From Sphingobacteriales bacterium (GTDB lineage: Bacteria; Bacteroidota; Bacteroidia; Chitinophagales; LD1): DNA of 64,000 nucleotides. Position 1 is the stretch's first letter, and each line of letters starts with the position of its first letter. The notes under the pieces are model-generated. The model had not been told where the DNA came from. It did no database searches and saw only the letters and a list, made by a program, of their open reading frames with translations. A program made the position numbers and the translations under genes. Of this stretch, positions 40,082 to 62,505 are shown piece after piece. The stretch spans positions 186,001 through 250,000 of the forward strand of contig JADFDM010000003.1 in assembly GCA_018262795.1 (NCBI GenBank), written 5' to 3'.

Positions 40082-40231
40082 ATGAATCTAGATAAGTTTG
40101 ATAACAATTCTTATAAACGATTTTGTTCTCCTGCTCAAATTGAAAAAGCAGTAAATCTGAGAAAAGAAGGAATCCCACTTCAAATAATACAAGAGTCTGA
40201 CCTTTATGATGCCATCGAGGAATTAAAATAA
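40082..40231 (+). CDS. Small protein of 49 residues, unknown function
   Basis: ATG at 40082 and TAA at 40229-40231. The product is polar and probably helical: FCSPAQIEKAVNLRKEGIP then ESDLYDAIEELK at the C-terminus, with no signal peptide. CACTTTTG at 40055-40062 is a candidate -7 box 19 bases upstream. The 3' two thirds are present again at 40450-40544 as a fragment without its own start. I do not recognise the family; helix-rich C-terminal sequence and an acidic end could suit a small regulator or antitoxin, but that is a guess. Confidence 0.5.
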   Translation: MNLDKFDNNSYKRFCSPAQIEKAVNLRKEGIPLQIIQESDLYDAIEELK

Positions 40232-40386
40232 TTTTGCCTCGGAACGCGAACAACTAACAGCCGATTCCATCCTTACGGGACTGGACACTATTTTTATTTT
40301 TTACTTACCCATATTCAACCCCTACAGGGTTGCCTGTTTATAGAATAGCGCATTGCTATAAACATTCGACTCCATCGGAGTCGCAC
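40137..40386. repeat. 250-bp direct repeat, copy 1
   Basis: Covers the last 32 codons of the small gene and a downstream compound palindrome. It is identical to 40450-40699 apart from two substitutions that I can see (C/T at 40287 and at 40364), at a constant offset of 313 bases. Confidence 0.85.
40316..40383. repeat. Compound palindrome (three stacked hairpins)
   Basis: In order: CAACCC-ctaca-GGGTTG (40316-40332), GTTTATAG with CTATAAAC around a 12-nt loop (40336-40363), and CGACTCC-atc-GGAGTCG (40367-40383). The same three-part design recurs at 40629-40696 and, inverted and diverged, at 62416-62482. It is a typical intergenic palindromic element with no coding capacity. Confidence 0.75.
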
Positions 40387-40449: not shown

Positions 40450-40544
40450 AAATTGAAAAAGCAGTAAATCTGAGAAAAGAAGGAATCCCACTTCAAATAA
40501 TACAAGAGTCTGACCTTTATGATGCCATCGAGGAATTAAAATAA
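40450..40544 (+). pseudogene. Truncated copy of the 49-residue gene
   Basis: Contains the last 31-32 codons of the gene at 40082 in the same frame (stop at 40542-40544), but the 5' part is replaced by unrelated sequence. The nearby ATG at 40441 is in another frame and ends after eight codons. Confidence 0.7.
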
Positions 40545-40628
40545 TTTTGCCTCGGAACGCGAACAACTAACAGCCGATTCCATCCTTACGGGACTGGATA
40601 CTATTTTTATTTTTTACTTACCCATATT

Positions 40629-40696
40629 CAACCCCTACAGGGTTGCCTGTTTATAGAATAGCGCATTGCTATAAATATTCGACTCCATCGGAGTCG
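40629..40696. repeat. Compound palindrome, second copy
   Basis: Same three hairpins as at 40316-40383, carried by the direct duplication, with one change in the right arm of the central stem (CTATAAAT). Confidence 0.75.
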
Positions 40697-40779
40697 CACA
40701 CTTGGGTCTTTCGCCTCTGGTGGGCGGGTCTTGTTTGATTCTCCTTTTCATAGAATTAGTTTGGTTTAGAAGTAAAACG

Positions 40780-40968
40780 GCTCACTTATTTACTGAACCG
40801 ATTCAGTTTAAAGGTGAACTCACTAAGTTTTTAGCTTACCGGACTAAGTAATTTACTTATGTTGGTAAGTAAATAGCTTAGATAACTCAGTAACTTACTG
40901 AGCGTAGTAAGTGAATTGCTTATACATGTAAGTCTTTTACTTAGGTAATTCAGCTAAAAGCTTAGTTA
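40780..40968. repeat. Nine 21-bp units, each a near-palindrome
   Basis: Units start at 40780, 40801, 40822, 40843, 40864, 40885, 40906, 40927 and 40948, with no gaps. Each has the form NNTAAGT-N5-ACTTA-N4 or a variant. In several the two half-sites change together: unit 40885 reads TCAGT-aactt-ACTGA. Half-sites therefore repeat every 10.5 bases on average, one helical turn. Both strands have stops in all frames, so it is not coding. A tenth, degraded unit may follow to about 40989. Confidence 0.8.
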
Positions 40969-40989
40969 TTTTACTTAAAAGGTGAATTT

Positions 40990-41175: not shown

Positions 41176-42345
41176 ATGCTTTTCACCCCCATAAAAATAG
41201 GTCCGGTTCAGTTGCGCAACCGATCCATTCGCGCGGCTGCTTTTGAGGGCATGAGTGCGAATCACAACGTTTCGCAAAGTTTGATTGACTATCATCAATC
41301 GGTGGCAAAAGGAGGAATAGGTATGACTACCGTGGCCTATGCTTCTGTTTTAAAAAGCGGTCTTTCTTTTCCTCATCAGCTTTGGCTTCGCGAAGAGATA
41401 ATTCCACCACTGAAAAAGCTAACTGATGCGGTTCATCGGGAGAATGCCGCAGCAAGTATTCAAATAGGGCATTGCGGAAATATGGCTAAGCATGAAGTGA
41501 TAGGTGGAAGACCGATTGCTGCTACCACGCATTTCAATTTTTATGCGCCTTCGTTTCCGCGCAAAATGAACAAGAAGGATATAGCAAATACCGCAAAAGC
41601 ATTTGGCAAAGCAGTAGTGCTTGCCCGCGAAAGCGGTTTCGATGCGGTGGAAGTTCACGCGGGCCATGGTTATCTTATCAGTCAGTTTCTTTCGCCATCT
41701 ACCAATCATCGCAGCGATGAGTTTGGCGGCTCGCTTCAAAACCGGATGCGGTTTATGCAACTGGTGCTGAACGAAGTAATGAAAGCGGCAGCCGATAAAA
41801 CAGCGGTGCTGGTAAAAATGAATATGCGCGATGGATTTAAAGGAGGTATGGAAATGGACGAGTCGCTGGAGGTGGCAAAAGAGCTGGAAAAAATTGGCGC
41901 ACATGCGCTGGTTTTAAGCGGTGGTTTTGTGAGCCGTGCACCCATGTATGTGATGCGTGGCTCCATGCCCATTCATACGCTGGCAGCGCACATGGATAAG
42001 AAGCTAATGAGCGTGTTCGTAAATCTTTTCGGCAAGTGGTTGGTGCCCAACGTTCCATTTACCGAGAATTATTTTCTGAACGATGCAAAAGTTTTTAGAC
42101 AAGAATTAAAAATGCCTTTAGTTTATGTAGGTGGGATTCTTTCAAAAGAAAATATAGATGAAGTGTTGAACGAAGGGTTCGATGCCGTAGCCATTGCGCG
42201 GGCTTTAATTCGCAATCCCGATTTTATGCAGCAGCTACTTGAAGAAAAGCTAAAACATTCCGCCTGCGATACCTGCAACCATTGTATTGCAGTGATGTAT
42301 AACGGACCTTTTAAGTGCATTCAAACAGAAAATGCCATTCAATGA
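41176..42345 (+). CDS. Old Yellow Enzyme-type NADH:flavin oxidoreductase
   Basis: 389 residues from the ATG at 41176 (MLFTPIKIGPVQLRNR, the conserved family start). The FMN TIM-barrel has VEVHAGHGYLISQFLSP and NHRSDEFGGSLQNRMRF. A C-terminal CDTCNHC plus a later Cys (PFKC) matches the [4Fe-4S] ligands of the dienoyl-CoA-reductase branch. The FAD/NAD domain of that branch is absent, so electrons must come from elsewhere. The substrate is unknown. Its TGA overlaps the ATG of the SDR gene. Confidence 0.9.
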   Translation: MLFTPIKIGPVQLRNRSIRAAAFEGMSANHNVSQSLIDYHQSVAKGGIGMTTVAYASVLKSGLSFPHQLWLREEIIPPLKKLTDAVHRENAAASIQIGHCGNMAKHEVIGGRPIAATTHFNFYAPSFPRKMNKKDIANTAKAFGKAVVLARESGFDAVEVHAGHGYLISQFLSPSTNHRSDEFGGSLQNRMRFMQLVLNEVMKAAADKTAVLVKMNMRDGFKGGMEMDESLEVAKELEKIGAHALVLSGGFVSRAPMYVMRGSMPIHTLAAHMDKKLMSVFVNLFGKWLVPNVPFTENYFLNDAKVFRQELKMPLVYVGGILSKENIDEVLNEGFDAVAIARALIRNPDFMQQLLEEKLKHSACDTCNHCIAVMYNGPFKCIQTENAIQ

Positions 42346-43160
42346 CGCTGGGTGTAGAGAAAACAAAAATTGCTTTAGTCACCGGTGGTTCCTCCGGCAT
42401 TGGCTTTGCTATTGCCTGCGAATTAGCTGCCCAAAAGAATTCAATTCTGCTCGTTAGCAATCAAGCCGCGCAATTGCAACAATGCAAAACAGAAATTGAA
42501 AACCGATATGCTGTTCAATGCTTCATTCTAAATATTGACCTCACGCTTTCTTCTTCCGCGCAGCAAATTTTCGATTACTGTACAGCCAATAATCTTGAAA
42601 CAGAAATTTTGGTGAACAATGCAGGCATGTTAGTTTTTTCAGAAACGGCTGCTGCCGCTATCGAAAAAGTAAATGCCATTCTTCAACTGCATATTTATAC
42701 GCCCACCATGTTGTGTTGTTTGTTTGGTGCCGAAATGAAAAGTAAAAAGCGCGGTCATATTTTAAACGTGTCGTCCATTTCATCGGTAATGCCTTATCCG
42801 GGTATTTCACTTTATGGTCCTACAAAAACGTATCTGCGTTATTTCACCCGCGCACTCCGAAGCGAAATGAAAGAGTACCAAGTGAACGTTACCTGCTTGC
42901 TTCCCGGAGCCACCGCCACCGCGCTTTACGACCCTAAGCGGATAAATATTTCACTCGCCAAAAAACTGGGTGTTATGCACCCTTCCGAGTTTGTAGCCTC
43001 CAAAGCGGTGAAGGCATTGCACCATCGGAAAGCAGAATGTATTCCGGGGTTGGCAAATAAAATTACCATGTGGTTAATGCCACTCCTTCCATCCTTTATT
43101 ATTGAATTGATTAACCGCAAAACCAATTTGCTCGATAAGGGGAATCAATCGCTGGCTTAA
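42342..43160 (+). CDS. Short-chain dehydrogenase/reductase
   Basis: 272 residues from the ATG at 42342, which overlaps the previous stop (ATGA). The Rossmann motif TGGSSGIGFAIA, the NNAG at about residue 88-91, and the catalytic Ser and YxxxK (SLYGPTKTY) are intact. The C-terminus has a hydrophobic stretch (MWLMPLLPSFIIELI) that may associate with membrane. NAD(P)-dependent; the substrate is probably related to that of the coupled oxidoreductase, but neither is known. Confidence 0.9.
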   Translation: MTLGVEKTKIALVTGGSSGIGFAIACELAAQKNSILLVSNQAAQLQQCKTEIENRYAVQCFILNIDLTLSSSAQQIFDYCTANNLETEILVNNAGMLVFSETAAAAIEKVNAILQLHIYTPTMLCCLFGAEMKSKKRGHILNVSSISSVMPYPGISLYGPTKTYLRYFTRALRSEMKEYQVNVTCLLPGATATALYDPKRINISLAKKLGVMHPSEFVASKAVKALHHRKAECIPGLANKITMWLMPLLPSFIIELINRKTNLLDKGNQSLA

Positions 43161-62383: not shown

Positions 62384-62505
62384 AATGTCATTAAGTTAAG
62401 TGTAGTTTTTGTGTTCGACTCCGAAGGAGTCGGATGTTTATAGCACGCAATGCCCTATAAACATCCGACCGCATCGCGGTCGCACTTCCTTAACTTAATG
62501 ACATT
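62384..62505. repeat. Nested palindromic element with 17-bp terminal inverted repeats
   Basis: AATGTCATTAAGTTAAG (62384-62400) is perfectly repeated in inverse orientation at 62489-62505. Inside lie CGACTCC-gaa-GGAGTCG (62416-62432), GGATGTTTATAG with CTATAAACATCC (62432-62466) and CGACCGC-atc-GCGGTCG (62466-62482). The whole 122-bp unit can fold into a cruciform. It is non-coding. Confidence 0.8.

Follow-up and report, generated by a model that had tools for sequence, protein, structure and literature searches.

Plasmid partition sites and iterons are short sites, repeated in tandem, to which a dimeric protein binds, and wrapping regulators of the Lrp/AsnC family act on phased operator arrays in which 15-bp imperfect palindromes with an A/T-rich centre place several sites on one face of the helix. 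The nearest described kind that we found to the repeats reported here is the BrickBuilt minisatellite/MITE of Porphyromonas gingivalis, made of intergenic, gapless 23-nt units of one sequence, with a leader, a tail and terminal inverted repeats (PMC4596501). In addition, direct repeats of the heptamer TAACTGA have been described in intergenic DNA of Beggiatoaceae, Cyanobacteria and Bacteroidetes (PMC4679880).

The window analysed here, a stretch of 64,000 nucleotides from a Sphingobacteriales bacterium, contains an array that recalls each of these systems. As in BrickBuilt, we are dealing with gapless tandem units in the Bacteroidota, always intergenic and found at several loci per genome, with a leader-like flank (here 70 bp, on the left) and a unit number that varies between copies (here 10 and 8). 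However, BrickBuilt repeats one sequence in units of 23 nt, whereas the units here measure exactly 21 or 42 bp with an unrelated motif in each array, and the terminal inverted repeats carried by the BrickBuilt leader and tail were not seen by inspection at the ends of our copies. The TAACTGA repeats are likewise intergenic, tandem, lineage-patchy and often upstream of genes, and 21 is a multiple of 7. Those repeats use one fixed heptamer, whereas self-match at lags 7 and 14 is at background in nearly all of our arrays, which disfavours an origin from heptamer repeats, and non-coding arrays of period 28 or 35 are absent.

The likeness to Lrp/AsnC arrays lies in the 15-bp imperfect palindromes, the A/T-rich centre and the one-face sites; the motif differs, motifs vary here from array to array, and no such regulator is tied to the arrays. 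Partition sites and iterons share the tandem arrangement of short sites and the dimeric protein (putative in our case), but here there are many arrays per chromosome, with differing motifs, and no partition or replication genes lie beside the two copies by sequence reading. No phage or plasmid relationship of the arrays was found. Among open-licence papers we found no description of arrays locked to a 21/42-bp period, and a search there on Lrp-type phased sites also gave nothing.

The window array and its second copy

The window array and its surroundings comprise the following features.

40710..40779, plus strand: left flank ('leader'-like) common to the window array and its copy on contig C19, containing an in-register 21-bp dyad at 40738-40758 (from the copy comparison).
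40780..40989, no strand assigned: ten 21-bp units in tandem; columns 3-17 of each unit form a 15-bp dyad core, NNTMASTNNNNWRSTKANNNN, and the other 6 bp are a low-information linker (from period, dyad and copy comparison).
40970..40986, minus strand: terminal-unit core TTCACCTTTTAAGTAAA (from an exact-copy search of 61 genomes).
41176..42345, plus strand: gene for an NADH:flavin oxidoreductase (old-yellow-enzyme type, named from sequence), its ATG 186 bp downstream of the array end.
42315..43160, plus strand: gene for an SDR-type dehydrogenase, overlapping the end of the oxidoreductase gene (from ORF reading).

The ten units lie head to tail without gaps. An earlier, sequence-only reading had recognised the gapless period of 21 but counted nine units; the tenth, TTTTACTTAAAAGGTGAATTT (40969-40989), is in register with the other nine, and a further, weaker in-register dyad unit, ATTCTCCTTTTCATAGAATTA (40738-40758), lies inside the conserved left flank. 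Self-match of the array at lags 21, 42, 63, 84 and 105 was 0.561, 0.554, 0.544, 0.540 and 0.524, compared with a chance level of 0.291 (sd 0.035, maximum 0.42) in Markov-shuffled sequence. Autocorrelation peaks had been expected at both 10.5 and 21; the latter was found, and a direct peak at lag 10-11 is absent because the half-sites are inverted. Each unit carries a left arm TMAST (columns 3-7) and a right arm RSTKA (columns 13-17) around column 10, and the half-site centres are alternately 10 and 11 bp apart, that is one helical turn, which places all half-sites of the array on a single helix face, as had been proposed from the letters. In support of the near-palindrome, also part of that proposal, the dyad score was 0.542 compared to 0.412 in column-permuted units, and 0/300 permutations were as good.

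As previously stated, the array is not coding, with stops in all six frames and no open frame across it, and it has no CRISPR-type spacers, since the units are contiguous and 56% self-similar. There is no 7-bp sub-period (self-match 0.24 at lag 7 and 0.23 at lag 14) and no three-base pattern among the conserved columns. No Bacteroidota-type promoter consensus turned up close to the array, and an Rfam search of it returned only sub-threshold microRNA chance matches, none above the gathering score. By sequence reading its neighbours are a T9SS-type adhesin gene and the oxidoreductase and SDR genes, which start the reported 0.2 kb downstream. The recently duplicated segment reported beside it is 250 bp long and 99.2% identical (40137-40386 and 40450-40699). 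This segment ends in a short dispersed repeat, and a further 81% match lies at 62413-62463.

A search for the 21-bp profile elsewhere, which the sequence-only reading had proposed, revealed one more copy in the same genome (3.48 Mb in 19 contigs); by blastn against 100 relatives, phages and plasmids the window array had no match beyond its own genome. The second copy, of eight units, sits on contig C19, where it is flanked by a tamB-like gene and a gene for a TonB receptor (gene names from sequence reading), and its orientation relative to the downstream gene is opposite to that of the window array. Both copies have the left flank of about 70 bp in common and a joint end at the terminal unit TTTTACTTAAAAGGTGAA; homology between them stops at the array on the right and at about 40710 on the left. 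An array downstream of tamB was absent in the other 29 loci scanned.

Comparison of the seven homologous unit pairs revealed changes at 13/105 core positions and 22/42 linker positions (Fisher p 9.6e-7; the division into core and linker was set on the very sequences that were then tested, and multiplying by 21 for the choice of register brings p near 2e-5). Columns 5, 6, 11, 12, 14, 15 and 17 did not change at all between the copies, and columns 5, 15 and 17 are invariant over the 18 units; the linker columns hold 0.05-0.52 bits. Note that column heterogeneity within single arrays may partly come from shared ancestry of the units. Each core therefore looks constrained, as had been suggested for the dyad of each unit, and a constrained 15-bp dyad core with a free 6-bp linker appears to be the best reading of the divergence in this one pair of arrays. 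A conserved dyad core in each unit with free linkers is a mark of operator arrays for dimeric regulators. A second mark, the same motif at other promoters, was not seen: isolated copies of TMAST-N5-ASTKA outside the two arrays were not enriched in 864 kb, which makes an ordinary regulon operator unlikely for the window motif.

The arms had also been said to change together. Covariation between them gave p 0.0096 in the window array (driven by the column pair 4-16), 0.56 in the C19 copy and 0.03 in the pooled units, and between the copies arm pairing was lost as often as it was retained, with one clean double change (TCAGT/ACTGA to TAAGT/ACTTA). With covariation this weak, the claim that the arms clearly change together is not upheld.

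A class of 21- and 42-bp intergenic arrays

The genus contains many intergenic arrays with units of 21 or 42 bp, of which the window array is only one, a fact that the first reading had missed; what it observed stands with the corrections given above, while its interpretation is partly supported. A degenerate three-unit pattern search showed that congeners carry 21-bp arrays whose arms are quite different (matches of this pattern in viral contigs look like coding coiled-coil repeats or chance, and were not retained as further arrays). We then scanned for periodic self-match at all lags from 6 to 130 in two samples, one of about 2.85 Mb (own genome, congeners, and loci of Bacteroidota retrieved through the neighbouring gene glyA) and one of 0.8 Mb in stretches that were for the most part the starts of contigs in congeners and outgroups, together with short loci around two other genes. 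Genomes were sampled as stretches and gene calls are crude ORF calls. As a control, planted arrays of period 15-56 were recovered equally well by the detector.

The period was exactly 21 (16 arrays) or 42 (11 arrays) in 27/28 non-coding arrays of period 10-60 from the own genome, G009, G016, G017 and the near-relative MAG L071, the exception being 14; this tally, made partly by hand, leaves out arrays that guided the sampling, likely coding arrays and double counts. None of the 28 had a period of 20, 22, 41 or 43. Coding arrays from the same scan had periods of 9, 15, 18, 51, 69, 75, 81 and others, almost never 21 or 42, with one or two coding 42-period arrays (L262, and L060:7565, judged coding). 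Besides the window array and the C19 copy, at least nine arrays have stops in all six frames, and a few have an open frame. Collagen-like coding repeats of period 9/18 also occur near glyA in near relatives (L073, L079, L080, L081 and L074).

Array density per 100 kb was roughly 1 in the own genome, 3 in G017 and 4 in unselected G009 contigs. Non-coding 21/42 arrays were absent from congeners G005, G008, G012 and G013 (480 kb together) and from the family- and order-level relatives G018, G023, G025, G031 and G074 (500 kb together), and about 1 Mb of wider Bacteroidota yielded one 42-period array (L114) and one 21-period array (L127). In another family, about two dozen near-exact TTTAAGCTAACAGGTTAATTG units lie around positions 1421-1958 of L011 (G040:C13); unlike the arrays of the genus, they show a period-7 sub-structure. 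Two contig ends of the own genome, L160:1-251 and L157:1-297, carry the same nearly exact 42-bp array as reverse complements, which suggests that a long array broke the assembly.

The array sequences are mostly unrelated, each with short conserved blocks of its own. In several arrays (L031, L058) the 42-bp unit consists of two related 21-bp monomers, and in L057 and others the two halves of the 42-bp unit are inverted copies. Exact copies of TTCACCTTTTAAGTAAA among 61 genomes were confined to both own-genome arrays and one array of G009, another species, where the sequence is in register at a non-orthologous locus. Moreover, that G009 array and the own-genome L032 array have a 34-bp stretch in common (91%; L060:16270-16303 and L032:8039-8072), at the array edges and at non-orthologous loci. 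Two dispersed repeats were also observed: palindromic TGTTGTTGGTGATAACACACAACAACGGC (L036:11785-11815, L071:4455-4485, L159:1926-1954), present in more than one species and beside two 42-bp arrays, and hairpin-like CTTAGTCTGAAGCCAAGCC..GAGCCGAGGGACTAAGG in the own genome (L031:7176-7221, L047:1520-1563 and 2430-2469, L032:8581-8626), with one occurrence at the end of a 42-bp array.

Against a column-permuted null that preserves period and divergence, the dyad score had a mean z of +1.72 over 34 arrays. About a third of the arrays have an excess of dyads (10/34 at p<=0.01), and about two thirds have no significant dyad. Convergent gaps hold 1/20 arrays, compared with 30/133 long gaps that are convergent, a modest signal.

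Origin of the period and function of the arrays

The 21/42 rule fits the B-DNA helix: with 10.5 bp per turn, no integral unit length below 63 other than 21 and 42 leaves all units facing the same way. Taken with the dyad cores and the free linkers, the rule suggests that dimers are bound next to each other on a single face and polymerise or wrap. Our preferred reading, which we advance tentatively, is that the window array belongs to a lineage-restricted intergenic class with a unit length locked to two (21 bp) or four (42 bp) B-DNA turns and motifs that differ by array, and that its members are candidate landing platforms, helically phased on one face, for dimeric DNA-binding proteins that oligomerise. 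A protein dimer would bind the dyad of about 15 bp in each unit, the 21-bp spacing would put every dimer on the same helix face with adjacent dimers in contact, and the protein could then polymerise along, or wrap, the array DNA over 8-20 units. Lying in gaps upstream of genes, such a platform would be multivalent and would probably set local transcription or nucleoid structure. Unit number would drift via slippage or unequal exchange, leading to higher-order 42-bp repeats, and the motifs may be bound either by a different paralogous protein each or by one low-specificity protein for all. Besides the core-versus-linker contrast and the excess of dyads, this reading draws on the near-equal folding excess of the two strands, the exact in-register recurrence of TTCACCTTTTAAGTAAA at a non-orthologous locus of G009 and the rarity of arrays in convergent gaps; against it stand the two thirds of arrays that have no significant dyad, the lack of enrichment of isolated window motifs, and the 29 other tamB loci that lack an array.

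The main rival, which we regard as rather unlikely, is that the arrays are minisatellites without sequence-specific function, generated by a duplication mechanism in 21-bp steps (one example would be slippage or exchange while a protein with a two-turn footprint holds the DNA), and that they drift and spread like BrickBuilt; we know of no duplication mechanism with a 21-bp step. Unrelated motifs at one fixed period, patchy presence among congeners, the related monomers within the 42-bp repeats of L031 and L058, the different unit numbers of the two copies (10 vs 8) and the many arrays without dyads all fit such an origin, whereas the core-versus-linker divergence, the excess of dyads and the rarity in convergent gaps are unexpected for neutral repeats. 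This origin accounts better than platforms for motif diversity and patchiness, and worse for core constraint and dyad excess.

It is improbable that the units are hairpins, with stems of 5 bp, loops of 5 nt and linkers of 6 nt, which would form in RNA or in extruded DNA and serve as an RNA leader or as a cruciform. The folded strand of the window array is predicted to be far more stable than shuffles (z -7.1), some arrays fold better than period-preserving nulls, and the clean double change between the copies agrees with paired arms. However, pairing was broken between the copies as often as it was kept, the C19 copy has no covariation, only 3/28 arrays have within-unit covariation at p<0.05, and the Rfam search gave no match above threshold. 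Moreover, the folding excess is near-equal on both strands of the arrays (mean z -1.65 and -1.80), and this symmetry favours a DNA-level property over RNA.

Slightly less probable again is that the DNA is intrinsically curved, or carries a signal for HU-type wrapping, with a period set by the helix; the sequence-only reading had listed a phased curvature element among its possibilities. The predicted bend of the window array is indeed 184 degrees vs 61 for shuffles (p 0.003, wedge model), but any 21-bp tandem repeat bends coherently, and relative to column-permuted, period-preserving arrays the class is not more strongly curved (mean z 0.28 over 28 arrays, 3/28 at p<0.05), which disfavours selection for curvature across it. 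In addition, array-rich and array-poor congeners have about the same number of HU/IHF genes (1-3).

A tandem operator specific to the oxidoreductase-SDR operon, a link suggested at first by the nearness of the first gene (186 bp downstream), is very unlikely: the second copy lies beside unrelated genes in the other orientation, a close oxidoreductase orthologue occurs in only one of the 17 congeners searched (G008, 59%), and arrays of the same period adjoin many unrelated genes. That the arrays are what is left of genes encoding heptad (7-residue) repeat proteins, for which the length of 21 bp, equal to seven codons, and the open frame of a few arrays would speak, is scarcely credible given the six-frame stops in the window array, the C19 copy and at least nine others, and the conserved window columns without a three-base pattern.

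The arrays suggest an undescribed system of face-aligned, putative protein-binding platforms. More tentatively still, some chromosomes of the genus may bear tens to perhaps more than 100 intergenic arrays with no common sequence and one exact geometry of two or four turns per unit, acting as distributed platforms for one-face protein polymerisation, an element defined by geometry and not by sequence. Something must lie behind a strict 21/42-bp rule over unrelated non-coding sequences, be it a protein able to read helical phase or duplication machinery that moves in two-turn steps. Each of these causes would be new, and the arrays are direct baits for finding it. They also provide a natural test bed for helical phasing in the chromosome organisation of a little-studied bacterial group.
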